The notes under the pieces: model-generated
Told to the model about the DNA's origin: nothing
The model's database searches: none
What the model saw: the letters and a program-made list of their open reading frames with translations, nothing else
Assembly: GCF_009193185.1 (NCBI RefSeq)
Contig: NZ_VUKF01000003.1
Coordinates: 62,001-126,000, forward strand
Source: Georgenia thermotolerans
GTDB taxonomy: Bacteria > Actinomycetota > Actinomycetes > Actinomycetales > Actinomycetaceae
Direction: 5' to 3'
DNA length: 64,000 nt
Made by a program: the position numbers and the translations under genes
Part shown: one piece after another, positions 6,149-21,968 of the stretch
Numbering within the stretch: the first letter of the stretch is position 1
Layout of the letters: each line of letters begins with the position of its first letter

Positions 6149-6347
6149 ACTTAGTGGACGTGACGTAAGGAGGGTCACATCACGAGGCGGTGCGCTACGG
6201 CCGAAGGACCCACGTCCGGCTCCCCGGTGCACCGTCCGCCGTCGCCGGCTCCCCGCCCCCGGGGGGAGCTGACCCCTCGTGACGGTTCGTGACCCCCGAC
6301 CCTGCGTGACGCCACAGCGGGCGCCGCGCTGACGAAAGGCAGTGCCG
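6149..6347 (+). promoter_or_regulatory. Leader/control region of the phosphotriesterase-like operon
   Basis: Three direct copies of CGTGAC occur at 6278-6283, 6288-6293 and 6305-6310. The first two are spaced by exactly one helical turn. A hairpin with arms GCTCCCC (6248-6254) and GGGGAGC (6263-6269) lies just upstream. Direct repeats one turn apart are typical of activator or response-regulator binding, but the protein is not known. No clear -35/-10 pair is visible. Confidence 0.35.
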
Positions 6348-7337
6348 ATGACGGACACGACAACCGCCGCGAGCAAGACCGTCAACACCGTTCTCGGGCC
6401 CGTGCCCGCGGAGGACCTGGGCGTCGTCGCGGTCCATGAGGCCCTGCTCTCGGTGGTCCCGGGGGCCGAGCACGCGTACGACATCACGATCGACCGCGCG
6501 GAGATCTTCGAGGTCCTCGCCACGAAGCTGACGGACTTCCGCGCGGCCGGCGGGAAGACGATCGTCGACAGCACCGGCATGTTTCACGGCCGCGACGTGC
6601 GGCTGTACGAGGCGCTCTCGCGGGCGACCGGCGTGCACATCGTCGCCTCGACCGGCATGGGCCCGGAGGAGATGCTCGGCGGGTACTTCCTCACCCCCCA
6701 GACCAACCCCCCGACGCCGTGGCCCGCGGAGAAGTTCGCCGACCTCTTCGCCCAGGAGGTCACCGACGGCATGGTCGTCCCGCGCGTGGAGCGCCGGGGC
6801 GCCGCCGGCCTGGTCGCGACCACGGCCACCCGGGCGGGCATGACCGCCACCGACGAGAGCCTGTTCCGCGGCGCCGCCCGCGCCGCGCAGGTCACCGGGG
6901 TACCGGTGTCGATCCGGTTCGGGGCCGACGCGGTGGCCGAGCTCGACGTCGTCCTGGACGAGGGCCTGCCGGCCGACCGCGTCGTCGTCGGCGGGCTCGA
7001 CCGCCGGGACGCCGTCGCCGCCGGGGCGCCGCTGGAGGTCGCGCGCCGCGGGGCGTTCGTGGCCCTGGACCACGTCGGCCTGAACGACGACGGCGACCAC
7101 CTCACCGACCGGGAGCGCGCCGCCCTGGTGGTCGAGCTCGTCGAGGCCGGCTTCGGCAACCGGGTGCTGGTCTCGAGCAACGCGATCGGCGTGGCCAAGG
7201 GCCGGCCCGCCTACGACCTGCCGTTCGGTTACGCCGCGACGACCTTCGTGCCCCTGGTCACCACGCTCGGCCTGGACGAGGCGGATGCCCGGCGGATCCT
7301 CGTGGACAACCCCCGGGACCTGCTCACCCTGGCCTGA
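6348..7337 (+). CDS. Phosphotriesterase-family protein lacking most metal ligands (probable pseudoenzyme)
   Basis: 329 residues from the ATG at 6348, which has AAAGG 9 nt upstream; a GTG 6 nt earlier is less well placed. It aligns end to end with the next protein, sharing NTVLGPxPAEDLGVVAxHE and GVHIVA.TG, so it is a TIM-barrel amidohydrolase of the phosphotriesterase/lactonase type. Five of the six expected metal ligands are changed. HEH becomes H30-E-A32, the bridging Lys becomes Ala, the two barrel His become Arg and Gly, and the last Asp becomes Asn. The reading frame is intact and codon use is normal, so it looks retained rather than decaying. A structural or regulatory partner of the downstream enzyme is the likeliest role (inference). 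Confidence 0.82.
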   Translation: MTDTTTAASKTVNTVLGPVPAEDLGVVAVHEALLSVVPGAEHAYDITIDRAEIFEVLATKLTDFRAAGGKTIVDSTGMFHGRDVRLYEALSRATGVHIVASTGMGPEEMLGGYFLTPQTNPPTPWPAEKFADLFAQEVTDGMVVPRVERRGAAGLVATTATRAGMTATDESLFRGAARAAQVTGVPVSIRFGADAVAELDVVLDEGLPADRVVVGGLDRRDAVAAGAPLEVARRGAFVALDHVGLNDDGDHLTDRERAALVVELVEAGFGNRVLVSSNAIGVAKGRPAYDLPFGYAATTFVPLVTTLGLDEADARRILVDNPRDLLTLA

Positions 7338-7377
7338 GCCTCCGGCCTATTGCTTTGTGACGTATTGGAGCTTGAAC

Positions 7378-8328
7378 ATGTCGAGAGTCAACACGGTCCT
7401 CGGGCCGATCCCGGCCGAGGAGCTGGGCGTCGTCGCCATCCACGAGCACATCGGGTACGGGATGCCCGGCTCGGAGCTGGACACGCGGTGGTGGAAGAGC
7501 CCTGAGGAGCGCTACGAGGAGACCGTCCCCAAGCTGCGGCAGTTCCACGAGTACGGCGGCGGGACCTTCGTGGACGCCACCGGCATCTGCAACGGCCGCG
7601 ACGTCGACTACTACAAGTCCCTGTCGGCCAAGACCGGCGTCCACATCGTCGCCTGCACCGGCTTCGTCGGCGGCGACACCGCCCTGCCGCACTTCGCCCG
7701 GGCGTCCGTGGACTACCTGACCCGCCAGTTCGTCCACGAGATCACCGTCGGCATCGGCACCACCGGCGCCCGCGCCGGGGTCATCAAGGTCGGCGTCAGC
7801 CGCGGCGGGCGCATGACGGACCTGGACAAGCGCATCTACCGCGCCGCCGCCCGCGCCGCTCTGGCCACCGGGGTGCCCATCCTGACCCACCTGGCCATCG
7901 ACGCCGAGAACGCCATCGCCATCTTCGCCGAGGAGGGGCTGGCGCTGGACCGGGTGCTCTTCGGTCACGCCGACGACGGCGTCAACGCCGAGAAGACGCG
8001 GGACACCTGGATCGCCGAGCAGGGCGGCCGGGTCGGCTTCGACACCTTCGGCTACGAGACCGAGCTCGAGGACCCGCCGTTCTGGGCCCGCCCCCGCCAG
8101 GAGCGCCTGGACCACTTCCTGCGCTTCATCGGCAAGCACCTGGACAAGGCGCTCGCCTCGGCCGACGCCAACTGCTCCCCGCTGGGCTGGCCCGGCGTCA
8201 AGGGCCACACCGTCAACTACATCTTCGAGGACCTCATCCCCGACCTGCGCCGGGCGGGCGTCGACGAGGCCACGATCACCCGGCTGTTCGTCGAGAACCC
8301 CGCCACCTTCCTGTCCATCCAGAACTGA
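7378..8328 (+). CDS. Phosphotriesterase-family metal hydrolase (lactonase-like)
   Basis: 316 residues from the ATG at 7378 with GGAG upstream. All metal ligands of the family are present: H22 and H24 (HEH), K137 in VIKVG (the carboxylated bridging Lys), H171 in LTHL, H197 in FGHAD and D263 in ASADAN. These enzymes hydrolyse lactones, phosphotriesters or esters in the cytoplasm. The start NTVLGPIPAEELGV is lactonase-like rather than organophosphate-hydrolase-like, but substrate is not determined. It follows its ligand-poor paralogue by 40 nt and precedes oxidative and hydrolytic genes, which suggests one catabolic operon. Confidence 0.87.
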   Translation: MSRVNTVLGPIPAEELGVVAIHEHIGYGMPGSELDTRWWKSPEERYEETVPKLRQFHEYGGGTFVDATGICNGRDVDYYKSLSAKTGVHIVACTGFVGGDTALPHFARASVDYLTRQFVHEITVGIGTTGARAGVIKVGVSRGGRMTDLDKRIYRAAARAALATGVPILTHLAIDAENAIAIFAEEGLALDRVLFGHADDGVNAEKTRDTWIAEQGGRVGFDTFGYETELEDPPFWARPRQERLDHFLRFIGKHLDKALASADANCSPLGWPGVKGHTVNYIFEDLIPDLRRAGVDEATITRLFVENPATFLSIQN

Positions 8329-8449: not shown

Positions 8450-9553
8450 ATGAAGACTTCGGAACTCGCGAACCTCAGGATCGCCATCGTCGGCGCCGGG
8501 TACGGCGGCGCGGCCGCGGCCAAGGCGCTGAGCCTCCTGGGCGCCGACGTCACCGTCTACGAGCAGGCCACCGAGATCAGGGAGGTCGGCGCCGGCATCG
8601 GCCTGCGCCCCTCGTCCATGGCCGCGTTCCGCCGGTGGGGGATCTTCGAGGCCATCGCCGCCGTGAGCTCGGCGAGCGACTACTTCGAGATCCTCACCGC
8701 CACCGGTGAGCCGATCATGAAGGACACCTGGCCGGAGTCGGGGGAGGAGAAGAACACCTACCTCATCCACCGCAACGACTTCATCCAGGCGCTCGTCGGC
8801 GTCCTGCCCGAGGGCATGCTCCGCGTGGGCCACAAGCTCGAGGCCGTCACCGACCGCGGCGACGGGGCGACCCTCACCTTCGCCAACGGCACGACCGTCG
8901 AGGCCGACCTCGTCGTCGGCGCCGACGGCATCAAGTCCACGGTGCGCCGCCAGCTGTTCAGCGACCAGCAGCCGGTGTTCGCCGGCGAGCACGCCTACCG
9001 CGCCGTCGTCGACGCCGACGCCGCCCACGGCCTGGTGATGGACGACAACCTGCGCATGTACATCGGCAGGGGCACGAAGGTCTACGCCCTGCCGCTGCGG
9101 CACCGCAACCAGCTCTCCTTCGACGTCACCGTCCTCAACCCCGACGGCACGTGGACGCCGAACGTCTCCCAGGACGACATGCTGGCGACGCTCGAGGGCT
9201 TCGACGAGCGCATCGTCAAGACCGCGCAGGACCTCGACTGGAGCAAGGTCTCCATCCGCGCCGTCTACGACATCGACCCGGTCGACACCTGGCACTCGGA
9301 CGCCGTCGTCCTGCTCGGCGACGCCGCCCACTCCATGTGCCACCACCAGGGCCAGGGCGCCAACTCGGCCATCCTCGACGCCGACGCCCTCGCGGAGTCG
9401 CTCCGGGAGGCCGACTCGGTCCCGGAGGCCCTGGCCCGGTACCAGGCGACCCGCAAGCCGGTGACCGACGAGCTCCAGCGCATCTCGCGCCAGGGCTGGA
9501 CCGAGGACGAGCTCAACGACGTCTTCCCCGGCCAGAAGACCGCCGCGAAGTGA
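8450..9553 (+). CDS. FAD-dependent aromatic-ring monooxygenase (salicylate/3-hydroxybenzoate hydroxylase type)
   Basis: 367 residues. The three flavin motifs of class A monooxygenases are present: GAGYGG at about residue 17, VVGADGIKS at about 160 and VLLGDAAHSMCHHQGQGAN at about 287. Members take NAD(P)H and O2 and usually hydroxylate an aromatic acid. The Cys and double His in the GD motif are slightly unusual, since most homologues read MLPHQGQG. It lies 121 nt after the lactonase-like gene and 19 nt before the esterase, so co-transcription is likely. The exact substrate is unknown. Confidence 0.87.
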   Translation: MKTSELANLRIAIVGAGYGGAAAAKALSLLGADVTVYEQATEIREVGAGIGLRPSSMAAFRRWGIFEAIAAVSSASDYFEILTATGEPIMKDTWPESGEEKNTYLIHRNDFIQALVGVLPEGMLRVGHKLEAVTDRGDGATLTFANGTTVEADLVVGADGIKSTVRRQLFSDQQPVFAGEHAYRAVVDADAAHGLVMDDNLRMYIGRGTKVYALPLRHRNQLSFDVTVLNPDGTWTPNVSQDDMLATLEGFDERIVKTAQDLDWSKVSIRAVYDIDPVDTWHSDAVVLLGDAAHSMCHHQGQGANSAILDADALAESLREADSVPEALARYQATRKPVTDELQRISRQGWTEDELNDVFPGQKTAAK

Positions 9554-9572: not shown

Positions 9573-10496
9573 ATGACCCTGCACCCCGAGATCGCCAAGA
9601 TCGTCGCCACCCTGCCGCCCCCGCCCCCGGGGCCGATCGACCCCGCGGTCCTGCGGGCCGCCGAGGAGGCCCAGGTCCCGCCGCCGGCCGAGCGCCTGCC
9701 GCTGCACGCCGTCGAGGGCCGCGCGGCGGTGACGCCCGCGGGGGAGGTGCCGGTGCGGATCTACACCCCCACCGCGGCGGAGAGCTCCGGCCTGCTCGTG
9801 TACTTCCACGGTGGCGCCTTCTTCCTGGGCAGCCTCGACACCCACGACCACGTCGCGCGGGCGCTGGCCAAGGAGACCGGGCTGAGGGTGGTCTCGGTCG
9901 GCTACCGCCGGGCGCCCGAGGCGGCGTTCCCGGCCGGTCTCGAGGACTGCTACGGCGTGGTGCGCTGGGCCGCGGAGAACGACGACACGCTGGGCTGGGA
10001 CGGGACGACCCTGGCGCTCGCGGGCGACAGCTCGGGCGGCACCTTCGTCGCCGCCGTCGCCGCCATGGCCCACGACGACGGCTTCGACCGCATCACCCAC
10101 CAGGTGCTGTTCTACCCGTCCCTGGACCTCGACTTCGACGTCGACCGGTACGCGTCCCTCCGGGAGAACGCCGCGGGGTACGGCCTGGAGACGGCCGGGC
10201 TGAAGCCCTTCAACGCGTTCTACCTCGACAGCGGCGCCGACCCGGCCGACCCCCGCGTCTCGCCGATCAAGCGCGAGGACCTCGCCGGGCTGCCGCCCGC
10301 CCTCATCCTCACCGCCGAGCACGACCCGCTGCGCGACGAGGGCGAGCTCTACGGCCGGAGGCTGCAGGAGGCCGGCGTCGAGGCGACGGTGCACCGGTAC
10401 GCCGGCGCCAACCACGGCTTCGTGCAGAACTTCTCCTGGATCCCCGAGTACTACGAGGCCTTCGCCGAGACGGGCCGGTTCCTGCGGCGGCGCTAG
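9573..10496 (+). CDS. Alpha/beta hydrolase, hormone-sensitive-lipase (family IV) esterase
   Basis: 307 residues. The oxyanion motif HGGAFFLG (about residues 79-86), nucleophile GDSSGG (about 151), acid EHDPLRDEG and terminal His in ANHGF are all visible and in the right order. The family cleaves short-chain or aryl carboxyl esters. The gene sits in a tight run (19 nt after the monooxygenase, 13 nt before the MBL gene). An aryl or acyl ester intermediate of the same pathway would be a sensible substrate (inference). Confidence 0.9.
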   Translation: MTLHPEIAKIVATLPPPPPGPIDPAVLRAAEEAQVPPPAERLPLHAVEGRAAVTPAGEVPVRIYTPTAAESSGLLVYFHGGAFFLGSLDTHDHVARALAKETGLRVVSVGYRRAPEAAFPAGLEDCYGVVRWAAENDDTLGWDGTTLALAGDSSGGTFVAAVAAMAHDDGFDRITHQVLFYPSLDLDFDVDRYASLRENAAGYGLETAGLKPFNAFYLDSGADPADPRVSPIKREDLAGLPPALILTAEHDPLRDEGELYGRRLQEAGVEATVHRYAGANHGFVQNFSWIPEYYEAFAETGRFLRRR

Positions 10497-10509: not shown

Positions 10510-11472
10510 ATGACGCACGACGTGGCGGTGCACCCCCTGGTGTCGCCGTGGGGCCGGTTCGGCCTGTACAGCTTCTTCATCGACGCGCCCGAGCCGGCGA
10601 TCGTGGACACCGGGGTCGCCTCCTCGCCGGCCGCGGGCATGGTGCCGGCGCTGGAGGACCTGGGCCGCGGCATCGAGGAGGTGCGCTGGATCCTGCTGAC
10701 CCACGGGCACATCGACCACCTCGGCGGGGCGCACGCGTTGTGGGAGCTGACCGGGCGCCGTGCCCAGGTGGTGATCCACGAGGCCGACGCCGCGCTGCTG
10801 CGCGCGCGCCGGGCCCACGTGGACCTGTACCTGGACGTGCGCCAGCGGTACCTGCGCAACCCCGCCGCCGTCGAGGAGCAGACGGCGATGGCGCAGGCCG
10901 CGATCTCGGGCGAGATGGAGCCCACCATGCTGGTCAGGGGCGGGGAGCGCCTGTCGCTCGGGGGTGACGTGACCGTCTCGGTCCACCACATCCCGGGCCA
11001 CACCGCCGGGTCCGTCGCGTACGTGATCGACGGGCAGGACGACGTCTTCGTCGGCGACGCCGCGCAGGTCCACGGCGCGGCCAACGGCTTCCCCGGCTAC
11101 GAGGACCCGGTCGCCTACCGGGCGAGCCTGGAGTACCTGCGCGACGAGGTCCGCCCCCGGCACCTGTACCTGGGCCACCCGTACCGGACGGCGGACGGGG
11201 AGCCCTTCGGCGTCGAGCTGGACGCCGAGCAGGCGCTCCGGGCGCTGCAGGAGAGTCTGGACATCGAGGCCCGGATCGACGCCGCCGCCCGCCGCCACCT
11301 CTCCGACGGCGTGGGGGAGTCCGACTCGGTGTACGCCCCGTTCGTGGCGGTCGCCGAGGAGCTGGGCTACACCGGCGACCCGCGGCTGGAGCCGTCGCCG
11401 TTCTTCACCACCCTGCACGGGTACGCCCGGAGGTACGGCGCGACGACGCCGGAGAAGGAGCTGCACCGATGA
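10510..11472 (+). CDS. Metallo-beta-lactamase-fold hydrolase
   Basis: 320 residues, preceded by a strong GGAAGGG site. The two-zinc motif THGHIDHLGG is at about residues 64-73. It is followed by PGHTAGS, the bridging Asp in VGDAAQ and a last His in GHPYRT. The fold covers lactonases, glyoxalase II-like thioesterases and others. The N-terminal half resembles the N-acyl-homoserine-lactonase branch, but nothing fixes the substrate. The stop overlaps the start of the CocE gene by 4 nt (ATGA), so the two are translationally coupled. Confidence 0.87.
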   Translation: MTHDVAVHPLVSPWGRFGLYSFFIDAPEPAIVDTGVASSPAAGMVPALEDLGRGIEEVRWILLTHGHIDHLGGAHALWELTGRRAQVVIHEADAALLRARRAHVDLYLDVRQRYLRNPAAVEEQTAMAQAAISGEMEPTMLVRGGERLSLGGDVTVSVHHIPGHTAGSVAYVIDGQDDVFVGDAAQVHGAANGFPGYEDPVAYRASLEYLRDEVRPRHLYLGHPYRTADGEPFGVELDAEQALRALQESLDIEARIDAAARRHLSDGVGESDSVYAPFVAVAEELGYTGDPRLEPSPFFTTLHGYARRYGATTPEKELHR

Positions 11473-13217
11473 CCGAGACCATCACCGAGATCCGCACCTG
11501 GGAGTCCGGCGCGCAGAGGATCCGCATCCGCAAGGACCTGCGCGTGCCCATGCGCGACGGCGTCGAGCTCGCCGCCGACGCCTACCACGGCGTGGAGGAC
11601 AAGCCCCGCCCGGCGCTGGTGGCGCTGTCCCCGTACGGCAAGGAGCTGCAGGCGCTGGCCCTGACGATGCCGCCGCAGCGGCGCCCGTCCCCGATGTGGG
11701 ACGGGTGCATCGAGGCCGGCGACATCGCCCGGGTGGTCGCCGAGGACTACGTCCACGTCATCGGCGACCTGCGCGGGTCCGGCGCCTCGGGCGGCGAGCA
11801 CATCGGCAACTACAACGCCGGCGGCGTGCCGCTGGGCCAGGACGCCTACGACTTCATCGAGTGGGTCGCCGCCCAGCCGTGGTGCGACGGCAACGTCGGC
11901 ATGATCGGCATCTCCTACTTCGGCTCCATGCAGGTCTACGCCGCGGCCGAGCGGCCCCCGCACCTCAAGGCCATCTTCGTCTCCGGCGGCCACTACGACT
12001 TCTACGAGACCACCTACCACGGCGGGATCATGTGGTTCATGCCCCGGGCCGCCCGCGAGGGCCGCGGCGGGGACTCCGGCTGGGCGTTCACCGACCGCAT
12101 CACCTCCCGCATGCTCGAGACGTACTCGGAGGAGGAGATCAAGGAGCGCGTCGCCAGGCGCCTGGCCGACCCCGACATCGCCGCCTGGCCCAACCTCGTG
12201 CACCTGCTGCACTACCCCAAGCACCACGAGGCCTGGTTCGACATCGTCATGAACGAGCTCGACGGGGAGTGGTACGAGGAGCGCAACCCGATCAACCTCG
12301 CCAAGAACATCGACATCCCGGTCTACCTGCAGATCGACCAGGGCCGCGGGTGGACCCTGGACGGGACCATCGAGCTCTTCAACGAGCTCCAGGGGCCCAA
12401 GCGCCTCGACATCGGCTCCTACCCCCCGATGCAGTCCCGGCCCTGGGTCGAGGAGCACGACAAGATGTTCCGCTGGTACGAGTACTGGCTCAAGGGCATC
12501 GACAACGGCGTCATGGACGAACCCGCCGTGAACGTCTTCGTCGAGGGCTCCCGCGAGGTGGTCACCGCCGCGCAGTGGCCGCCCAAGGACGTCGAGTACC
12601 TCCCGCTGTACCTGCGCCCGCGCCGCAAGCTCTCGCCTCAGCCCGAGCTGATGGGCACCGAGCACGCCGCGCCGGACGGCTTCTACCAGGCGCCGCTGAC
12701 GGTGACGGACAAGGTCGAGATCCTGTCCTGGTCCACCGAGCCGTTCGCCGAGCCCACCGAGCTCATCGGCACCGGCGCCGCGCACCTCTTCGCCGCAATC
12801 GACCAGGACGACACCAACTTCATCCTGCGGCTGTGGGACGTGGCCCCGGGCGGGAGCCGGCAGCTGATCACCACCGGCTACCTCAAGGCCTCCCACCGCG
12901 AGCTCGACGAGCGCACCACCGAGGGCAACCCCTACCACCCGCACACCCGCTCCGTGCCGGTCGAGCCCGGGGCGATCGAGGAGTACGTGCTGCGCCTGTA
13001 CCCCTTCGCGGCGACCTTCCGGGCCGGGCACCGGCTGACCGTCGAGCTGTCCAACAACGAGCCGCTGGTCGACGAGCACAACTCCCTGCTCCCGCCCGAC
13101 GCCTTCCACCTGCCCGTGGGCCGGCCCGTCACGCACAAGATCTACCGCGACGCCGCCCACCCCTCCCGGCTGGTGCTGCCGTTCACCACCCGACCGGCGG
13201 CGGAGCAGGAGAAGTAG
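11469..13217 (+). CDS. CocE/NonD family serine hydrolase (X-Pro dipeptidyl-peptidase-like esterase)
   Basis: 582 residues. The ATG overlaps the MBL stop and has AAGGAG 6 nt upstream. The N-terminal hydrolase part carries RGSGASGG and the nucleophile motif GMIGISYFGSM (Ser at about residue 150). The C-terminal third (from about residue 365) is the jelly-roll XPDP-C domain found in cocaine esterase. Such enzymes cleave esters, amides or beta-lactam-like substrates. It is the last gene of the forward run that begins at 6348, and a strong hairpin follows it. Confidence 0.9.
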   Translation: MTETITEIRTWESGAQRIRIRKDLRVPMRDGVELAADAYHGVEDKPRPALVALSPYGKELQALALTMPPQRRPSPMWDGCIEAGDIARVVAEDYVHVIGDLRGSGASGGEHIGNYNAGGVPLGQDAYDFIEWVAAQPWCDGNVGMIGISYFGSMQVYAAAERPPHLKAIFVSGGHYDFYETTYHGGIMWFMPRAAREGRGGDSGWAFTDRITSRMLETYSEEEIKERVARRLADPDIAAWPNLVHLLHYPKHHEAWFDIVMNELDGEWYEERNPINLAKNIDIPVYLQIDQGRGWTLDGTIELFNELQGPKRLDIGSYPPMQSRPWVEEHDKMFRWYEYWLKGIDNGVMDEPAVNVFVEGSREVVTAAQWPPKDVEYLPLYLRPRRKLSPQPELMGTEHAAPDGFYQAPLTVTDKVEILSWSTEPFAEPTELIGTGAAHLFAAIDQDDTNFILRLWDVAPGGSRQLITTGYLKASHRELDERTTEGNPYHPHTRSVPVEPGAIEEYVLRLYPFAATFRAGHRLTVELSNNEPLVDEHNSLLPPDAFHLPVGRPVTHKIYRDAAHPSRLVLPFTTRPAAEQEK

Positions 13218-13231
13218 CAGAGCCGACCATA

Positions 13232-13260
13232 CCCGGGCGCCCTCGGCGGGGGCGCCCGGG
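13232..13260. terminator. Strong hairpin terminator after the CocE gene
   Basis: CCCGGGCGCCC pairs perfectly with GGGCGCCCGGG (11 bp) around a 7-nt loop, 14 nt after the CocE stop. The VOC gene points towards it from the other side, so it may act in both directions. Confidence 0.7.
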
Positions 13261-13313
13261 CACGGCTCCCGCGGCCGAGGCCGTGGCGGCCCAGGCGTCG
13301 ATGCCCGCGAGGG

Positions 13314-13724
13314 TCACGCCAGCTCCTGGATGCGGACCAGGTTGCCGGCGGGGTCGCGCACGGCGCAGTCGCGGATGCCGTAGGGCTGCATGGTCGGCTC
13401 CTGGACGACCTCGACGTCGTCGGCCTGGATCTTCTCGAAGGTGGCGTCGAGGTCCGGGGTGGCCAGCAGGATCCAGCCGTAGGTGCCCTTGGCCATCATC
13501 TCGGTGATCGTGCGGCGCTCGTCGTCGGTGATGCCCGGGTCGGTGGCGGGCGGGGCCAGGAGGATGGAGGTACCGGGCTGACCGGCCGGGCCGACCGTGA
13601 TCCAGCGCATCCTGCCGCTGCCGACGTCCTGGCGGACCTCGAAGCCGAGAACGTCGCGGTAGAAGGCCACGGAGGCCTCCGGGTCGTCGTGGGGCAGGAA
13701 GCTGGTGTGAATTCTGATGTCCAT
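13314..13724 (-). CDS. VOC (glyoxalase/extradiol dioxygenase fold) family protein
   Basis: 136 residues from the ATG at 13724; an in-frame GTG lies 27 nt further upstream, and neither has a clear Shine-Dalgarno. The pattern of a single VOC unit is plain: HTSFLPHDDPEASVAFYRDVLGFEV at the N-terminus and YGIRDCAVRDPAGNLVRIQE at the C-terminus. The N-terminal His and C-terminal Glu fit metal ligands. Function within the fold (lyase, dioxygenase, resistance protein) is open. It faces the catabolic run and lies next to the TetR gene. Confidence 0.83.
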   Translation of the reverse strand: MDIRIHTSFLPHDDPEASVAFYRDVLGFEVRQDVGSGRMRWITVGPAGQPGTSILLAPPATDPGITDDERRTITEMMAKGTYGWILLATPDLDATFEKIQADDVEVVQEPTMQPYGIRDCAVRDPAGNLVRIQELA

Positions 13725-13816
13725 GGCGCGAAACGCTAGCGGCGGCGCCACGGCCGGTACTTCTCGATTCCTGATCGATCCCGACCGCCGGCGTCGGCGT
13801 CAGGTCGACCGGCGGC

Positions 13817-14428
13817 TCAGCTGCCGGGGGCGCCGTCCACGAGCAGGTGGCACCAGGAGTCGGCAAGGACGCTCAGCGCGGTCTCGCGGTCGACGACGCT
13901 CCAGCCCCGCTGCATCCAGCGCAGCGAGAGGTACTCCAGCTCACCGAAGGCCAGCGAGCACCGGATGTAGCGGGTGGCCGGGTCGAAGCGGCCGGCGTCG
14001 TCGAGCCCGTGCTGCATCTCCGTGATCGTCGCCGCGAACCACTGCTCCTTGGTGGCGGCGATGTCCGGCTCGACGGCGGCCGCCTGGTTGGCCGCGATGA
14101 CGTACGACCGCGTGGCCGGCCACTGGTCGGCCTTGGTCTCGATGAAGCCACGGATGAGCCGCCGGTCGCCGGACCGGACGACCTCGCGCAGCGGCGGGTC
14201 GTCGGCGCTGGTGAAGATCTCGTCGAGGTCGGCGACGAGCTCCTGCATGAGCTGTGCCTTGGACGCGAAGTGCATGTAGAAGGTCGTCCGCGTCGTGCCC
14301 GCGGCCGCGGCGATGTCGTCGATCGTCGTGGCGACGTAGCCCTTCCCCTCGAAGAGCTCCAGCGCCTTCTCCAGCAGCAGGCGGCGGGTCATCTGCTTCT
14401 GGGCTTCTCGGAGGCGGATCACAGCCAC
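13817..14428 (-). CDS. TetR family regulator, probably of the divergent ABC importer and/or the cluster
   Basis: 203 residues from a GTG at 14428. A second GTG at 14422 follows a TAGGGT box by 6 nt, so a leaderless start there is possible. The helix-turn-helix reads TTIDDIAAAAGTTRTTFYMHF, with FASKAQLMQEL after it (residues about 33-60). The ligand domain has Trp and Phe residues but no known class. It is transcribed away from the ABC transporter operon, with a perfect 18-bp palindrome in the shared 342-nt gap. Confidence 0.88.
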   Translation of the reverse strand: MAVIRLREAQKQMTRRLLLEKALELFEGKGYVATTIDDIAAAAGTTRTTFYMHFASKAQLMQELVADLDEIFTSADDPPLREVVRSGDRRLIRGFIETKADQWPATRSYVIAANQAAAVEPDIAATKEQWFAATITEMQHGLDDAGRFDPATRYIRCSLAFGELEYLSLRWMQRGWSVVDRETALSVLADSWCHLLVDGAPGS

Positions 14429-14770: not shown

Positions 14771-16300
14771 GTGAGCACGCCGCGCCTGCAGGTCCGTGAC
14801 CTGTCGAAGACCTTCGCCGGCGTGACGGTGCTGGACCGGGCCACCATGAGCATCGCGCCGGGGGAGATCCACGCCCTGGTGGGGCAGAACGGCTCGGGGA
14901 AGTCGACTCTCATCAAGCTCATCAGCGGCGTCTATCGGGCCGACCCGGGCGGCGAGATCCTCGTCGACGGCGCCCGGGTGGGCCCGCCCGTGCATCCGGG
15001 CCGGCTGCACCAGGAGGGCCTGTCCTTCGTCCACCAGGACCTGGGCCTGGTCGCCGACCTCAGCGTCCGCGAGAACGTCCGCGTCGGCCGGCACTCGACC
15101 CGCCGGTTCACCCGCTGGATCGACAAGGCCCGCGACCGTGAGGCGGTCCGGCAGACCTTCGAGTTCCTCGGTCTGGACATCGCCCCCGAGGCCCGCGTCG
15201 CCACCCTCCCGCCGAGCGAGCGGGTCGCCGTCGCCGTCGCGCGGGCGCTGCAGGACCGCGAGGCGGGCAGCGGCGTCATCGTCTTCGACGAGTCCTCCCG
15301 GGCGATCCCGCGCGAGGCGCTGCCGGCGTTCTACGAGATGCTCCGCTTCCTCGCCGACCAGGGCACCTCGGTCCTGCTCGTCAGCCACAACCTCAAGGAG
15401 GTCCTGGCGGTCACCGACCGGGTCACCGCCCTGCGCAACGGCAGGGTCGTCGACACCGGCGTGCCCACTGCCGACCTCGACGAGGCCGCGCTGACCCGGC
15501 TCGTGCTCGGCCGCGAGGGCACGCTGGACGACCTCGTCACGACCTTCCCCGCCAAGGTGCTGCCCGGCGAGATCGCGCTCCAGGGCGTCGCCGGCGGCCG
15601 GGTGCGGGACCTCACCGCCCGGCTCCGTCGCGGGGAGGTTGTCGGGGTGACCGGAGCCGTGGACTCCGGGCTCCTCGACGTCTCCGCGCTGCTCGGCGGG
15701 GCCCGCGCGGGGGAGGGCCGCATCGTCGTCGACGGCGCCTCACTGGACCTCGTCCGGGCACGGGTGGCGGACTTCCTGCGCGCCGGCGTCGCCCTCATCC
15801 CGCAGGACCGCGCCGGCCAGGGCCTGGCCCTGGGGCTGACCGTGGAGGAGAACGTCACCGCCCCGCACCTCACCACCCGCGGGAAGGCGTGGTGGACGGG
15901 GCGACGGTGGCGCCACGCCGAGACCGACGGCGTCCTGGACACCTTCGGCGTGCAGCCCCGCAGGCGCGACGCCGTCGTCGCCACCCTCAGTGGCGGCAAC
16001 CAGCAGAAGGTCCTCATGGGCAAGTGGCTGCTCGGCGGGCCGAGGCTCCTCGTCCTGGACGACCCCACCCAGGCGGTGGACGTCGGGGCCCGCGCCGCGA
16101 TCCTCGAGGCGACCCGCAAGGCGGCCCAGGAGGGCACCACGATCCTGCTGTGCTCGGCCGAGGTCGAGGACCTCGCCGCCGTGTGCGACCGGGTCCTCGT
16201 CCTCGCCGACGGCGTCGTCGCCCGCGAGCTCGCCGGACCGCTCACCCCCGAGGACATCCTCACCGCCATCTTCACCCCCGTCGCAGGAGGCGCGGCATGA
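14771..16300 (+). CDS. Sugar-type ABC importer ATP-binding protein, two fused nucleotide-binding domains
   Basis: 509 residues from a GTG start. Domain 1 (about 1-245) has an intact Walker A (GQNGSGKST) and Walker B (VIVFDESS). Its signature, however, is degenerate: LPPSER instead of LSGGQ. Domain 2 (about 255-505) has a good signature (LSGGNQQKV) and Walker B (LLVLDDPTQAVDVG), but Walker A is lost (GAVDSGLLD). This leaves one complete ATP site made from A1 and signature 2. The architecture is that of RbsA/MglA importers. The permease start overlaps its stop by 4 nt. Context suggests the ligand may not be a sugar. Confidence 0.9.
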   Translation: MSTPRLQVRDLSKTFAGVTVLDRATMSIAPGEIHALVGQNGSGKSTLIKLISGVYRADPGGEILVDGARVGPPVHPGRLHQEGLSFVHQDLGLVADLSVRENVRVGRHSTRRFTRWIDKARDREAVRQTFEFLGLDIAPEARVATLPPSERVAVAVARALQDREAGSGVIVFDESSRAIPREALPAFYEMLRFLADQGTSVLLVSHNLKEVLAVTDRVTALRNGRVVDTGVPTADLDEAALTRLVLGREGTLDDLVTTFPAKVLPGEIALQGVAGGRVRDLTARLRRGEVVGVTGAVDSGLLDVSALLGGARAGEGRIVVDGASLDLVRARVADFLRAGVALIPQDRAGQGLALGLTVEENVTAPHLTTRGKAWWTGRRWRHAETDGVLDTFGVQPRRRDAVVATLSGGNQQKVLMGKWLLGGPRLLVLDDPTQAVDVGARAAILEATRKAAQEGTTILLCSAEVEDLAAVCDRVLVLADGVVARELAGPLTPEDILTAIFTPVAGGAA

Positions 16301-17325
16301 CCACCACATCGACTTCCTCCGGCCAGGCGCGGGCCGGCGTCACCCAGCCGGGCCCGAAGACCGCGCCGGGCCCGCTCGGGCGCGCGGGCCGGGTGGTGCT
16401 CCAGCGCTACGGCCTCGTCCTCCTCTGGCTGCTCATGATCGCCCTGTTCGGCGTGCTCGTGCCCGGCCAGGTGAGCGGGCCGGACGCGCTCAAGGCGGTG
16501 CTCGGCCAGCAGACCCCGCTGGTCTTCCTCGGGCTGGCGCTCGTGTGCACGATGGCCGTCGGGGAGTTCGACCTGTCGTTCGCCTCGATCTTCGGCCTGG
16601 CCGCGACGACCGTGCCCGCGCTGGTCGTGCTCTACGGCTGGTCCTTCCCCGCCGCCGCCGCGGCCGCCGTCGTCGTCGCCGCGGTGATCGGGGCGATCAA
16701 CGCCGCCCTCGTGGTCCTGGTGGGCATCAACTCGGTCATCGTCACGCTCGGCATCGGCAGCGTGGCCGGCGGCGCGGCGTACTGGATCTCCAAGGAGACC
16801 TCGGTCAGCGGCATGGACTCGGCGCTGTCGGCCATCGCGCTGGACCGCTTCCTCGGCCTGCCGCTGCTCTTCTGGTACGGCGCGATCCTCGTGGCGGCAT
16901 TCGCCTACATGATGGGTGCCACCCCGCTGGGCCGGCACATCCTCTTCGTCGGATCCAACCGGGAGGTGGCGCGGCTCGCCGGCATCCCGGTCACGAAGGT
17001 CCGCATGGGCGCCTACCTGACGTCGGCCCTCATCTGCGGGGTGGGCGGCGTGATCATCGCGGCCGGGCTGGGCGGCTTCGACCCGGCGACGGCGGAGACC
17101 AACCTCATGCCCACCTTCGCCAGCGTCTTCCTCGGCACCGTCGCCGTCGTGCCCGGCCGGTTCAACCCGGTCGGGATGTTCATCGCCGTGTACTTCCTCC
17201 TGACCGGTGTCTTCGGCCTCCAGCTCCTCAGCTTCTCCGGCTGGGTCACCAACGTCTTCTACGGCATCGCCCTGGTGCTCGCCGTCACCGTCTCCTTCCT
17301 CCTCCAGCGGCGCGTGCGCGGCTGA
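16297..17325 (+). CDS. ABC transporter permease (RbsC/MglC-like)
   Basis: 342 residues from the ATG at 16297, which has AGGAGG upstream and overlaps the ATPase stop (ATGA). A polar, Pro/Gly-rich N-terminus of about 35 residues precedes eight to ten membrane segments. The cytoplasmic coupling motif FVGSNREVARLAGIPVTKVR (about residue 215) and the hallmark LGTVAVVPGRFNPVGM support the ribose/xylose permease family (BPD_transp_2). A single permease gene implies a homodimer in the membrane. Confidence 0.9.
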   Translation: MTTTSTSSGQARAGVTQPGPKTAPGPLGRAGRVVLQRYGLVLLWLLMIALFGVLVPGQVSGPDALKAVLGQQTPLVFLGLALVCTMAVGEFDLSFASIFGLAATTVPALVVLYGWSFPAAAAAAVVVAAVIGAINAALVVLVGINSVIVTLGIGSVAGGAAYWISKETSVSGMDSALSAIALDRFLGLPLLFWYGAILVAAFAYMMGATPLGRHILFVGSNREVARLAGIPVTKVRMGAYLTSALICGVGGVIIAAGLGGFDPATAETNLMPTFASVFLGTVAVVPGRFNPVGMFIAVYFLLTGVFGLQLLSFSGWVTNVFYGIALVLAVTVSFLLQRRVRG

Positions 17326-17379
17326 CCGCCACGCGCCGGCTCGTCCAGCAATCCCTCCAAGAGAACGGAATTGGTCCCC

Positions 17380-18567
17380 ATGAAGAGATCCGTCAGCGTC
17401 CTGTGGGGGAGCGTGGTGGCCGCCTCGGCGCTGCTGCTCGCCAGCTGCAGCAGCGGGACGACCGAGGCGACCGGCGCCTCCGAGAGTCCGAGTTCATCGG
17501 CGAGCGCGAGCGCGGCCGCCGACCCGGCCGCCGCGACGGCGCGGGAGCAGGTCGACCAGGCCTCGAAGGCGGTCGACGAGTTCACCGCGCCCGGCCCCGA
17601 GCTGGGGGACCTGTCCAGCCTCAAGGGGAAGACGGTCTACTACGTCCCCGCGAACTACAAGATCCCCCTGTTCCACATCGTCGGCGACGCGATGACGCAG
17701 GCGCTGTCCACCGCCGGCGTCGAGGTCAAGACCTGCGACGGGCAGGCCAGCCCCTCGTCGATGGCGAGCTGCCTGACCCAGGCCATCGACGCCAAGGCTG
17801 ACGCCGTGGTCTCCGGGTCCATCCCCGACGACCTCGCCTCCGTGGCCTTCCAGCAGGTGCGCGACGCCGGCATCCCGCTGCTCTACCTGCTCACCGCCCC
17901 GGCCGGTCCCGGTGAGCCGGAGAAGGTCGGCTACCTCACCCCGGACAACGTCGCCCTGCAGGCGATCAACGCCGACTGGATCATCGCCGACTCCGGCGGC
18001 CAGGCCAACGTCCTCGTCGTCAAGGTGACCGACACCCCGGCCACCACGCTGTGGATGGACCAGGGCGCCCTGGCCGAGTACGAGAAGACCTGCCCCAGCT
18101 GCAAGGTCACCGTGCTCGAGACCAACACCGGGCAGCTGCAGAAGCTCCCGAGCCTGGTCAGCTCCGCGATGGTGCGCGACCCCGACATCAACTACGTCCA
18201 GGCGGAGTTCGACGTCACCGTCCAGCCCGTCGTGCAGGGCCTGCAGTCCGCGGGCAAGACCGACGGCGTGAAGGTCGTCAGCGGCGACGGCACCCTCGCG
18301 ATCCTGCAGATGCTCGCCGAGGACCGGTCCATGGCCGCCACCATCGGCGTCAACCTCGACGCCCTCGGCTGGTACGGCGCCGACCAGCTGTTCCGCATGA
18401 TGTCGGGTGAGCCGAGCGTGCAGAACCTCGAGTTCCCCTTCCGCCGGCTCTTCACCGCCGAGAACGTCAAGGAGCTCGACCTCACGCCGGAGGGCGAGAT
18501 GTCCGGGTCGTGGTACGGCGACGCCGACTACAAGGAGGGCTTCAAGAAGCTCTGGGGCGTGGCCTGA
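17380..18567 (+). CDS. ABC transporter substrate-binding lipoprotein (Peripla_BP_4, RbsB-like)
   Basis: 395 residues from the ATG at 17380; a TTG 9 nt earlier is also in frame. A signal peptide ends in the lipobox LLASC, followed by a Ser/Thr/Ala-rich linker of about 60 residues. The mature domain resembles periplasmic sugar-binding proteins (KGKTVYYVPANYKIPLFH, QAIDAKADAVVSGSIPDD). The linker before the fold is longer than usual. It completes the importer with the ATPase and permease upstream. A strong hairpin follows the gene, so the operon appears to end here. Confidence 0.9.
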   Translation: MKRSVSVLWGSVVAASALLLASCSSGTTEATGASESPSSSASASAAADPAAATAREQVDQASKAVDEFTAPGPELGDLSSLKGKTVYYVPANYKIPLFHIVGDAMTQALSTAGVEVKTCDGQASPSSMASCLTQAIDAKADAVVSGSIPDDLASVAFQQVRDAGIPLLYLLTAPAGPGEPEKVGYLTPDNVALQAINADWIIADSGGQANVLVVKVTDTPATTLWMDQGALAEYEKTCPSCKVTVLETNTGQLQKLPSLVSSAMVRDPDINYVQAEFDVTVQPVVQGLQSAGKTDGVKVVSGDGTLAILQMLAEDRSMAATIGVNLDALGWYGADQLFRMMSGEPSVQNLEFPFRRLFTAENVKELDLTPEGEMSGSWYGDADYKEGFKKLWGVA

Positions 18568-18638: not shown

Positions 18639-18931
18639 TTGTGCTTGAAGATCGGGGATCGGATCGGTCTACGGCGGCACCTGTTAATGCCGCTCGGTAG
18701 GGCAAGTGCTCGACATGCGGGAAGACGGTGATCGTGCCGTTGCCTTCCTAGACGCAATGCCAATGGGGTTACGCCGTTTCACGTTGTTCTCCAGCACGGG
18801 CGAGTGGCTGAGACACCACTCAATCCAGGAAGGCCGACCTACCTGGACGAAATCGACATCCGCGACGAATTCACGCTAGTCTCCATGCGAAAAGCGAAGA
18901 TGCTTCGAATAGCGAAATGTTGGAGGCAAGG
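18639..18931. other. Gene-free stretch of unusually low GC at the edge of a likely acquired module
   Basis: No supported gene. Two 60-nt lines counted by hand (18641-18700 and 18841-18900) give 60% and 52% GC, against roughly 70-78% in the flanking genes. The lower GC continues into the genes that follow up to about 22000. The promoter of the monooxygenase gene is probably here but no clear pair of boxes was identified. Confidence 0.6.
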
Positions 18932-20113
18932 GTGACTCTACGTGTGGCCGTGATTGGCGGTGGCATCGGCGGTCTATCCGCTGCGCTGGCGCTGCAGGCC
19001 AAAGGAATCGAGGTCGATGTTTACGAGCAGGCGGCCGCTATCGGGGAGGTAGGAGCCGGCGTTCAGATCGCGCCAAACGGGCTGCGTCAGCTCCGCCGGT
19101 TGGGGCTCGGGCCCGAGATGGATCGGATCCTCACTTCCTTCTCCGCCGGGTCGGTCTATCGGCGGGAAGATGGCACGCCCGTCGCTGACGTCGTCGTCAA
19201 GGACTCGACTGGAGAGGTGTCTGTCGGGGGCGTCCACCGTGCTGACCTGATCGACGCCCTTCGTGGGAAGGTGCGGGAGGGGGGCGTCCACGTCGGGAAG
19301 CAGGCGCTGGGAGTAAGCCAGTCTGACGGCGGCGCGACCGTGGCCTTCGCCGACGGGAGTGAGGCGAGCGCTGATGTCGTCGTGGGTGCTGACGGCATCC
19401 ACTCGGTGGTCCGATCCGAAGTTACGGAACCTTCTCAACCAACGTTCTCGAACATGGTGGCCTATCGCGGGACTGTTCCCGCCGACGCGCTAACTGACTG
19501 GCCGGCTGGGCTGTTCGAGGTGTGGATGGGACCCGGCCGGCACTTCCTGACCTTCCCTGTCCGAGGCGGCGCCGTCATCAACTTCGTGGGTTTTGTCCCG
19601 GCCGACGACGAGATGCGCGAATCATGGACGGCACCGGGAAGCCCAGCACAGCTGCGCGCTGAGTTCGACAGTTGGGACGCACGCCTGCTCGCACTGCTGG
19701 ACAACGTGCACGTCACCAACAGGTGGGGCCTGTACGACCGTGAGCCTCTCGAGACCTGGCACCGAGGCAGGGTGTGCCTGCTCGGCGATGCAGCCCACGC
19801 CATGCTTCCCCACGTCGGACAGGGGGCAAATCAGGCGATCGAGGACGCGGTCGTCCTCGCGGAACTGCTCGCACGGGCCGCCCCTTCCGACGTGACGAAG
19901 GCGCTCGCGGAGTACGAGCGAGTGCGCCTTCCCCGGACGGCGGCCGTGCAGCGCGGCTCACGCCAGAACGGCCTTCGGTACGACTCGATGTACGAGGACC
20001 TCCACCAGCGCGACGCGGAGATGACCTCGTTCCGCGCCTTCCGCTACTGGCTCTACGACCACGACGCGCTGGATGAACTGCGGGCGCCCGCAGCCAGCGC
20101 GGTTATCAACTGA
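18932..20113 (+). CDS. FAD-dependent aromatic monooxygenase (salicylate hydroxylase type), second copy in window
   Basis: 393 residues. I chose the GTG at 18932 because GGAGG lies 5 nt before it; an ATG 15 nt upstream would overlap that site. Motifs are GGGIGG at the N-terminus, VVGADGIHS at about residue 155 and CLLGDAAHAMLPHVGQGANQ at about 283. It is close in type to the monooxygenase at 8450 but has the canonical MLPH motif, and its codon use is richer in A/T third bases. It begins a three-gene group with a binding protein and an IclR regulator. Such enzymes hydroxylate aromatic acids with NAD(P)H and O2. Confidence 0.88.
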   Translation: MTLRVAVIGGGIGGLSAALALQAKGIEVDVYEQAAAIGEVGAGVQIAPNGLRQLRRLGLGPEMDRILTSFSAGSVYRREDGTPVADVVVKDSTGEVSVGGVHRADLIDALRGKVREGGVHVGKQALGVSQSDGGATVAFADGSEASADVVVGADGIHSVVRSEVTEPSQPTFSNMVAYRGTVPADALTDWPAGLFEVWMGPGRHFLTFPVRGGAVINFVGFVPADDEMRESWTAPGSPAQLRAEFDSWDARLLALLDNVHVTNRWGLYDREPLETWHRGRVCLLGDAAHAMLPHVGQGANQAIEDAVVLAELLARAAPSDVTKALAEYERVRLPRTAAVQRGSRQNGLRYDSMYEDLHQRDAEMTSFRAFRYWLYDHDALDELRAPAASAVIN

Positions 20114-20131: not shown

Positions 20132-21145
20132 ATGCGTCACTCACTTATGTCCGACCGCCAGCACTCGGCTGGAAGGCCCGCGCGATGGCGGACACGGGGG
20201 GCGTCGATGCTGGCCACCGGCGCACTCCTGTCGAGCGTTGCGGCGTGTGCTTCCAGCGAGCCGACCGATGCGGCGGCTGCGACCGGCGACGAGCCCCGGT
20301 CGATCACCGTCGGCACCATGCCCCTGGCGGACCTCGCGCCGTTCTATCTCGCGCTCGAGGAGGGGATGTTCGACGACGCCGGGCTCGATGTGGAGGTCGT
20401 TTCGTCGAACGGTGGCGCCGCCCAGATCGCCTCCGTGATTTCTGGTGACATCCAGATCACCTACAGCAACTTCGTCTCGGTCCTGCAGGCCGTGCAGCGA
20501 GGTCTGCCCCTCAAGGCGATCCGGGAGAACAACCGCTCGGGGCCCCAGGGCATCTATGTCCGGAAGGACTCCGACATCTCCGCACCCGAGGATCTCGCCG
20601 GCCGGACCATCGCGATCAACAGCCTCGGGAACATTCAAGAACTGACCGCGCGAGCCGTCCTCAGCTCCTACGGGATAGCGCCCGAAGACCTCACGTTCGT
20701 CGAAATGCCGCCGCCGGACATGCGCGCAGCCCTGCTTGACGGGCACATCGACGCCGCGTGGCTTGTGGAGCCGTTCCTGACGGTCGTCGAGTCGGGTGGC
20801 GAGGGGCGCCGCCTGGTTGGCGCCTTCGAGGGGCCGACCGAGGACATTCCCGTCGCAGGATGGGTCACCACGGAGCAGTACCTGGGCTCTGACCAGGAGA
20901 CGGTCGACACGTTCATCAGCGTCCTCGACGAGGCGATGGCCCGGGCGCAGGAGGACCCGAGCGTTCTCGCCGAGGTCATCCCGACATACACGGAGATCTC
21001 GCCCGAGCTTGCTGGGCGGCTCGCCGAGCCAAGCCTCACGCCGTCGAGCGATCTGGCGACCCTGGCCGATCTCAAGGACCTCATGCTCACCCATGGAGTG
21101 CTCGAGAAGGACCTCGACCTCGACAGCATGACTTATCAGCCCTGA
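20132..21145 (+). CDS. ABC transporter substrate-binding lipoprotein (NMT1/SsuA/TauA-like), orphan
   Basis: 337 residues from an ATG with GAGGAG 5 nt upstream. A signal peptide with twin Arg pairs ends in SVAAC, a lipobox. The mature protein has the NMT1/THI5-like features GTMPLADLAPFYLALEEGMF, DIQITYSNFVSVLQA and HIDAAWLVEPF. The family binds nitrate, sulfonates, aromatic acids or thiamine precursors. No permease or ATPase of this class is near, so it must use components encoded elsewhere or be a remnant of a larger set. It lies 18 nt after the monooxygenase gene, which suggests the ligand is that enzyme's substrate. Confidence 0.88.
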   Translation: MRHSLMSDRQHSAGRPARWRTRGASMLATGALLSSVAACASSEPTDAAAATGDEPRSITVGTMPLADLAPFYLALEEGMFDDAGLDVEVVSSNGGAAQIASVISGDIQITYSNFVSVLQAVQRGLPLKAIRENNRSGPQGIYVRKDSDISAPEDLAGRTIAINSLGNIQELTARAVLSSYGIAPEDLTFVEMPPPDMRAALLDGHIDAAWLVEPFLTVVESGGEGRRLVGAFEGPTEDIPVAGWVTTEQYLGSDQETVDTFISVLDEAMARAQEDPSVLAEVIPTYTEISPELAGRLAEPSLTPSSDLATLADLKDLMLTHGVLEKDLDLDSMTYQP

Positions 21146-21170: not shown

Positions 21171-21968
21171 GTGGTGACCGAGACGAGCGCCCCGGCGGGG
21201 GTAGGGAAGACCTCCCCCCGCCGGGCCGAAGGCATGGCCGGTCTCGCGAAGGGGCTGGCGATCCTCGAGCTTTTTGGTGCCGGAACAGAGCGGCTGACGG
21301 TCGCAGATGCCGCCCGTGGGGCTGACCTCAGCCCGGCAAGTGCGAGACGCTGTCTGCTCACCCTCGAGGCGATCGGCTACCTGCATCACGACGGGAAGTA
21401 CTTCCGGCCGACGCCCCGGCTCGTGCGACTCGGGGCATCTTACTTCGAGACGTCTGAGTTCAGCGCGCTGGCCGCCCCTAGGGTGGCGGCCGCGCGAGAT
21501 GCCCTCGATGAATCGGTCTCCGTTGCTGTTCGAGACGACGACGTCGTGGTGTTCGTCGCTCGGGCTGAAGTCCGGCGGATCGTCTCCGCGGGCGTGCGGC
21601 TCGGTGCCCGCCTTCCGCTGGCCGCTTCGGCGACTGGACGTGTGCTTCTCGCAGCGCTCGATGACGATGCGGTGCGCACGCTCGTCGAGGAGACGACGCT
21701 CGTGCGAACGACGGATCGCACACTCGTGAAGCCGGAACAGATCCTCAGCCGGATCGCGCAGGCTCGGACGGACGGTTACAGCATCACCGACGAGGAGCTC
21801 GAGGTCGGGATGCGCACCATGGCCGTGCCGGTCGTCGATTCGATGGGCACCACACGAGCTGCCATGAGCGTCAGCGCCTTCACCTCACGGGTAACGCTCG
21901 AGGACCTCGTCGACCGGTTCTTACCTGTCTTGCGGGCCGAGGCGACGCTCCTTGGACGCGGGCTGTAG
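21171..21968 (+). CDS. IclR family transcriptional regulator (PcaR/PobR-like)
   Basis: 265 residues from a GTG at 21171, with GGGAGA 11 nt upstream. The winged helix-turn-helix is at about residues 25-85 (GLAKGLAILELFGAGTERLTVADAA, LSPASARRCLLTLEAIGYL). The effector domain has ASATGRVLLAALDD and ITDEELEVGMRTMAVPV, typical of regulators of beta-ketoadipate and other aromatic pathways. It closes the acquired group and probably controls it in response to an aromatic acid (inference). Confidence 0.88.
   Translation: MVTETSAPAGVGKTSPRRAEGMAGLAKGLAILELFGAGTERLTVADAARGADLSPASARRCLLTLEAIGYLHHDGKYFRPTPRLVRLGASYFETSEFSALAAPRVAAARDALDESVSVAVRDDDVVVFVARAEVRRIVSAGVRLGARLPLAASATGRVLLAALDDDAVRTLVEETTLVRTTDRTLVKPEQILSRIAQARTDGYSITDEELEVGMRTMAVPVVDSMGTTRAAMSVSAFTSRVTLEDLVDRFLPVLRAEATLLGRGL

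Follow-up and report, generated by a model that had tools for sequence, protein, structure and literature searches.

Two adjacent genes of Georgenia thermotolerans encode members of the phosphotriesterase (PTE) family that differ in their metal site: the downstream protein, P2, has it complete, and the upstream one, P1, is a predicted pseudoenzyme whose catalytic motif was lost and which has been kept over the long term. Reasoning from sequence, we think it rather probable that P1 and P2 form a hetero-oligomer in which P1 is an obligate subunit without catalysis of its own and places a loop at or in the active site of P2. Three things point to the hetero-oligomer: the strict pairing of the genes, their overlap in two lineages, and a P1-specific loop at a dimer-interface position. 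In other words, a dead copy retained intact by selection suggests that the live enzyme needs it as a partner. We infer the complex, its effect on P2 and the type of pathway involved.

Gene pair, metal site and selection

The window (the whole stretch of DNA analysed, 64,000 nucleotides) carries the pair and the P1 elements discussed below at these positions:

6348..7337, + strand: P1, predicted PTE-family pseudoenzyme (H-A-A-R-G-N), from PF02126, ligand columns, dN/dS and model
6654..6728, + strand: P1 residues 103-127, GMGPEEMLGGYFLTPQTNPPTPWPA, the most conserved stretch, from conservation and alignment
6771..6797, + strand: P1 residues 142-150, MVVPRVERR, a second P1-specific stretch, partly an insertion relative to P2
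6915..6917, + strand: codon of P1 Arg190, which replaces the third metal-binding His (R in 86/86, and in Caballeronia and L118)
7378..8328, + strand: P2, PTE-family metallohydrolase with six ligands complete, from PF02126, ligands (84/84) and dN/dS

The P1 frame is open from an ATG at 6348 to a stop at 7337 (329 aa), as a sequence-only reading of this DNA had described it; an in-frame GTG at 6342 is a possible alternative start. After a spacing of 40 bases, P2 is open from an ATG at 7378 to a stop at 8328 (316 aa). P1 matches PF02126 with 119.4 bits over profile positions 3-297 of 298 and P2 with 164 bits over nearly the whole profile (cut-off 22.4); the pair accounts for two of the four PF02126 matches in the genome.

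Scanning genome contigs with P1 gave 142 relatives, of which the best 80 loci, at 71-88% identity, were kept. All 80 are actinobacterial, from Georgenia, Streptomyces, Arthrobacter, Pseudarthrobacter, Kocuria, Nocardia, Rhodococcus, Actinomadura, Nonomuraea, Micromonospora, Geodermatophilus and other genera. Adding the window and five more loci brings the total to 86 pairs, 83 of them distinct. P2 lies directly downstream of P1 on the same strand in 80/80 loci (best 80 of 142). This adjacency, together with a copy on a betaproteobacterial plasmid, supports the sequence-only claim of a conserved pseudoenzyme beside its paralogue. The gap between the two genes is 2-60 bases (median 49; 86 loci, script-chosen starts), and the P1 frame is open in 86/86 copies, at 324-350 aa.

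A competent PTE metallohydrolase was defined by a binuclear site of HxH, Lys (or Glu), His, His and Asp. In the alignment, P2 has H22, H24, K137, H171, H197 and D263, and at the same columns P1 has H30, A32, A157, R190, G216 and N278, exactly the residues that the earlier reading had given for both proteins. All six ligands are present in 84/84 P2 copies (leaving out L045 and L059, whose assemblies break P2) and the full set in 0/86 P1 copies. The interruption of P2 in these two draft assemblies reflects either mutation or sequencing error. Among the 86 P1 copies, the first-His column holds His in 85 and Ser in one; the second-His column A in 85, S in one and His in none; the Lys column A 63, T 22 and V 1; the third-His column R in all 86 (Arg190 in the window); the fourth-His column G 73, D 11, N 1 and A 1; and the Asp column N 60, G 13, S 11, D 1 and R 1. 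The retention of H30 and A32 in 85/86 indicates that some positions of the dead pocket are held against drift. The retained His itself is not essential, being Ser in L010 and in Caballeronia, and with that change no metal ligand is left in the Caballeronia P1. As background, we examined 58 other PTE-family loci; the 56 with a frame of at least 250 aa keep the four His and the Asp without exception (56/56), and their Lys column holds K in 43 cases, G in the other 13.

Purifying selection acts on P1. Its dN/dS has a median of 0.055 (range 0.02-0.24, 154 pairs), far from 1, that of P2 has a median of 0.016 (122 pairs), and among the pairs usable for both the medians are 0.058 and 0.020 (77 pairs), all from pairs that are not independent, because they share ancestry and three loci are duplicates. 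Pairs had a nucleotide identity of 85-99.5% and a dS of 0.05-2, and pairs for which the estimator gave no value were left out. Nor is P1 strain-specific; a P1 limited to this strain, with a dN/dS near 1, would have told against the sequence-only reading. Its median identity to the window, 77% (80 loci, best of 142), falls inside the range of 74-84% for four downstream enzymes (70-79 loci each).

P1 and P2 group together in a FastTree phylogeny of 17 P1, 17 P2 and 56 other family members. With IQ-TREE, run on the same numbers of P1 and P2 and on 28 of the 56 others, SH-aLRT/UFBoot support is 100/100 for the P1 clade, 100/100 for the P2 clade and 97.2/99 for the two combined. The FastTree support of 0.252 on the P1 branch conflicts with the 100/100 of IQ-TREE; rerooting may have moved the label to this branch. 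On these trees P1 and P2 are sister clades, descended by what we read as a duplication. Most simply, a single duplication would have been followed by loss of the metal site from one of the copies, and the operon would have spread afterwards.

Conserved loops and the pocket of P2

Conservation in P1 is concentrated. In residues 103-127, 19/25 positions are conserved at 98% or more, a score tied with that of 110-134, and P = 0.0006 (5000 permutations), a value that is too small because positions were taken as independent. The best stretch of P2 in the same permutation test gives P = 0.63. The longest conserved run in P1, LGGYFLTPQT, spans 110-119. In the second stretch, MVVPRVERR, 7/9 positions are invariant in 85 copies. 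Across the whole protein the 85 copies share 88 invariant positions, and many of these are polar residues.

In a profile alignment, P1 102-117 corresponds to residues 94-109 of 4ker_A (103-117 to 95-109), a mapping that is a sequence alignment to a distant homologue; beyond its first 15 residues, the 103-127 segment is largely an insertion. We take 4ker_A to be SsoPox because residues 27, 72, 97, 98 and 223 match the published letters. According to PMC7084321, V27, L72, Y97, I98 and W263 of SsoPox line a dimer-interface cavity that joins both active sites. The alignment of P1 with P2 is ambiguous in the loop, where MAFFT places P1 G105-E107 opposite a gap in P2.

The P1 monomer model (pLDDT 81, pTM 0.85) has the (beta/alpha)8 PTE fold: the 50 Foldseek matches listed are, by title, PTE/OpdA or variants, with TM by query of 0.72-0.81. 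Foldseek sets the P2 model on PTE/OpdA entries too. In P1, pLDDT falls below 50 at 106-121 and 143-148, and also at 1-8, 38-47 and 280-287; in P2 it does so at 27-38, which overlaps that protein's longest conserved run (26-35), and at 267-269. Low pLDDT at conserved segments would fit loops that fold only with a partner. Alternatively, the alignments behind the models may be too shallow (62 and 59 rows), and variable ends such as P1 1-8 are among the low segments as well.

P2 lacks two substrate-pocket residues of the PLL lactonases, the equivalents of Tyr97 and Arg223 of SsoPox. The Tyr97 column holds V97 in 85/85, beside a TG motif where the loop alignment is ambiguous, and the Arg223 column holds T223, invariant in 59. 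PTE has Trp at the Tyr97 column, and P1 has G105 and H242 at the two columns. With Val at Tyr97 and Thr at Arg223, the substrate of P2 probably differs from that of a PLL lactonase. For the same missing residues, P2 as a PLL quorum-quenching lactonase is unsupported. P2 may need the loop of P1 to complete its pocket.

The operon and its carriers

The pair opens a set of enzyme genes in the window, followed by a regulator gene (locus counts are for the best 80 of 142):

8450..9553, + strand: group A-type FAD monooxygenase (PF01494; 80/80 loci)
9573..10496, + strand: alpha/beta hydrolase, hormone-sensitive lipase type (PF07859; 80/80 loci)
10510..11472, + strand: MBL-fold metallohydrolase (PF00753; 77/80 loci)
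11469..13217, + strand: CocE/NonD family hydrolase (TIGR00976; 76/80 loci)
13817..14428, - strand: TetR regulator, possible operon regulator (similarity to Caballeronia TetR)

The order after P2, flavin monooxygenase and then alpha/beta hydrolase, is the same in 80/80 of these loci. The MBL gene is reversed in several of them, and both the MBL and the CocE gene are missing at L081, a locus that is short.

Outside the actinobacteria, plasmid p2 of Caballeronia insecticola carries a P1 match of 59%, the sole close one on plasmids (best 40 of 182 records; the other 39 reach at most 31.2%). The annotated order there is TetR, cytochrome P450, ferredoxin, FAD-dependent oxidoreductase, P1, P2, FAD monooxygenase, alpha/beta hydrolase, MBL-fold, CocE/NonD and transporters. 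The Caballeronia P2 is 71% identical to that of the window, and its P1 keeps Arg190 and nearly all of the 103-127 loop. In a search of 85 sequences that reach at most about 6 kb upstream of P1, the Caballeronia P450, ferredoxin, reductase and TetR were matched in 48, 43, 45 and 62, respectively. The window TetR is 44% identical to the one adjoining the Caballeronia operon, and a ferredoxin, reductase and P450 set of the Caballeronia kind lies on another contig of the window's genome. The closest structures to the operon-associated P450 are CYP199; P450s of this type act on benzoic acids. The nearest solved structures (PDB) to the FAD monooxygenase are tropone 2-monooxygenase and 6-hydroxynicotinate 3-monooxygenase.

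The combination of a flavin monooxygenase, a nearby CYP199-type P450, three further hydrolases and a TetR regulator suggests that the operon probably serves to degrade an aromatic ester or lactone. The nearest monooxygenase structures and the CYP199-type P450 fix no one substrate. Among the matches listed in the open-licence literature we found no description of the operon, and a tropone search gave the same result. From piperine catabolism, PMC12753220 describes a hydrolase, PipM, encoded by 1389 nucleotides.

Several other genes lie near the operon or resemble parts of it. Between operon and TetR, the minus strand encodes a small glyoxalase-fold protein (13314-13751). Beside TetR are ABC importer genes (14771-18567), of the ribose type by eye, with an ATPase at 14771-16300, a permease, and a binding protein at 17371-18567; this importer is a possible uptake system for the operon substrate. 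A second flavin monooxygenase (18917-20113) is 36% identical to that of the Caballeronia operon. After it come two genes named by eye, for a binding protein (20132-21145) and for an IclR-like regulator (21171-21968). Elsewhere, the L148 contig carries a separate PTE-family gene (13021-14058), with the four His and the Asp kept and Gly in the Lys column, together with ferredoxin, reductase and CYP199-type P450 genes.

The pair is carried by many soil actinobacteria. In genome samples it is rare: it is present in 6/396 genomes of the order and in 5/394 of the class, the window's genome included in both, and P2 stands beside P1 in all of them. In a phylum sample of 396 genomes, a P2 search at E 1e-40 found two, the window's and G424, both with P1. 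The CocE of the cluster type occurs in exactly the six order genomes that have P1 (Fisher P 2e-13, kinship ignored). Neither a lone P1 nor a lone P2 was seen in the order, class and phylum samples, with up to five candidates scored per genome; homologues without their partner, which would have told against the sequence-only proposal if equally common and active, did not appear there.

Locus L118 (1504-3338) has a divergent P1, 54% identical overall, and a P2 that is 71% identical; as on the Caballeronia plasmid, the two genes overlap. Compared with that of the window, this P1 is 72% identical as far as residue 210 and 30% identical beyond, and 31 residues are missing, all between 217 and 315. 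Four other P1 copies, hand-picked, show 73-89% up to residue 210 and 49-76% after, which indicates that the C-terminal part is looser in general. L118 keeps MLGGYFLTPQTNPPTPWPAEKF (core 109-130) letter for letter, GMVVPRVERR with all nine residues of the second stretch (9/9), and Arg190; G105 and P106, aligned to Tyr97 and Ile98 of SsoPox, are changed. Because the loops persist while the C-terminal part is eroded, L118 speaks for a function of P1 that would lie in the conserved loops rather more than in the old pocket. The changes at G105 and P106, and the retention of the pocket residues H30 and A32 in 85/86 other copies, warn against too simple a version of this.

Roles proposed for P1, and known systems

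We propose the following mechanism. After an ancient duplication, P1 would have lost the binuclear metal site and P2 kept it. The 103-127 loop of P1, with 142-150, would sit at the interface and shape, gate or complete the active site of P2, which would do the chemistry. The P1:P2 pair would then form one hydrolytic step in the pathway encoded by its own operon, whose substrate, probably an aromatic ester or lactone, would be oxidised by the flavin monooxygenase and the CYP199-type P450. In a more specific version, which we hold only tentatively and consider doubtful, P1:P2 would be a composite, half-of-sites and obligately heterodimeric hydrolase, whose P1 loop (GGYFLTPQTNPPTPWP) crosses the interface into the active site of P2 and replaces the lost aromatic residue (Tyr97 in SsoPox, Trp in PTE, V97 in P2); it would serve a new substrate class in an unrecognised actinobacterial breakdown pathway. 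Counter to a complex, the monooxygenase and the alpha/beta hydrolase are as constant as P2 (best 80 of 142 loci). Genes of an operon co-occur without their products touching.

Could P1 instead be a metal-free enzyme with a step of its own, its pocket rebuilt around Arg190 and other invariant polar residues? The Arg is present in 86/86 copies and in Caballeronia and L118, H30 and A32 are kept in 85/86, and the many polar residues among the 88 positions invariant in 85 copies would suit such a role. Against it, three former ligand positions drift (A/T/V, G/D/N/A and N/G/S/D/R), H30 is Ser in L010 and Caballeronia, the densest conservation sits in one loop, L118 has lost 31 residues from 217-315, where its identity falls to 30%, and an enzyme with a step of its own would have no need to stay next to P2 so strictly; we consider this unlikely. 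The same Arg could bind an acid group if P1 were a sensor or carrier that held a substrate or intermediate in the dead pocket and controlled P2 or the pathway allosterically, and a CYP199-type P450 is matched in 48/85 sequences. This invariant Arg is the one specific support for the ligand sensing suggested in the sequence-only reading. Against it, several pocket positions vary, the barrel of L118 is eroded in its C-terminal part, and a Pfam search of P1 gives no DNA-binding or other output domain. We regard such a role as quite improbable.

That P1 lies directly upstream of P2 in 80/80 loci (best 80 of 142), with gene overlap in two lineages, would also be expected of a chaperone that helps P2 to assemble or to load its metal and does not stay in the mature enzyme. 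Such a chaperone would hardly have kept the whole paralogous fold, as P1 has outside L118, nor its conserved loop at the dimerisation site of the family, and we give this reading little credence. The loss of five of the six ligands could also mark P1 as a decaying, functionless duplicate, an idea with next to no probability for a protein spread across many genera and two phyla: with 86/86 frames open at 324-350 aa and a dN/dS of 0.02-0.24, both a decaying duplicate and an assembly artefact are ruled out.

The phosphotriesterase family serves as a model system in the study of enzyme evolution. A natural and widely conserved dead:live pair, if the hetero-oligomer is real, would show how the dimer interface of the family can become a regulatory site or a composite active site; L118 would point to the region on which the role of the dead subunit depends; and the operon suggests an uncharacterised breakdown pathway common to soil actinobacteria and at least one betaproteobacterium. 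Compared with the other members of PF02126 (PTE/OpdA, the SsoPox-like PLL lactonases and PHP), P1 and P2 share the profile match and the PTE fold, but P1 is without the metal site that P2 has complete. SsoPox and VmoLac are described as homodimers. Among the matches listed in the open-licence literature, no pseudoenzyme of the phosphotriesterase family was found.

Some bacterial aspartate transcarbamoylases contain inactive, metal-less, dihydroorotase-like structural subunits of the amidohydrolase superfamily. There the partner is a different enzyme, whereas the putative partner of P1 is its own PTE paralogue. The review PMC10211241 describes pseudoenzymes as allosteric partners, FAM20A with FAM20C and PRO with ENZ in TbPRMT1, that have lost the motif and pair with a homologue that is still active. 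Its main text mentions neither amidohydrolase nor phosphotriesterase nor dihydroorotase. P1 has the loss of the catalytic motif in common with these, and for P1:P2 the heteromer is a proposal. Closest in mechanism is the AdoMetDC/prozyme pair of trypanosomes, for which PMC5201418 gives crystal structures of a dead paralogue that heterodimerises with its living sister and activates it. The mechanism would be the same as the one proposed for the putative P1:P2 complex, in a different enzyme. Pairs of an enzyme and its dead paralogue are thus already known, and P1:P2 would add a case from the phosphotriesterase family.
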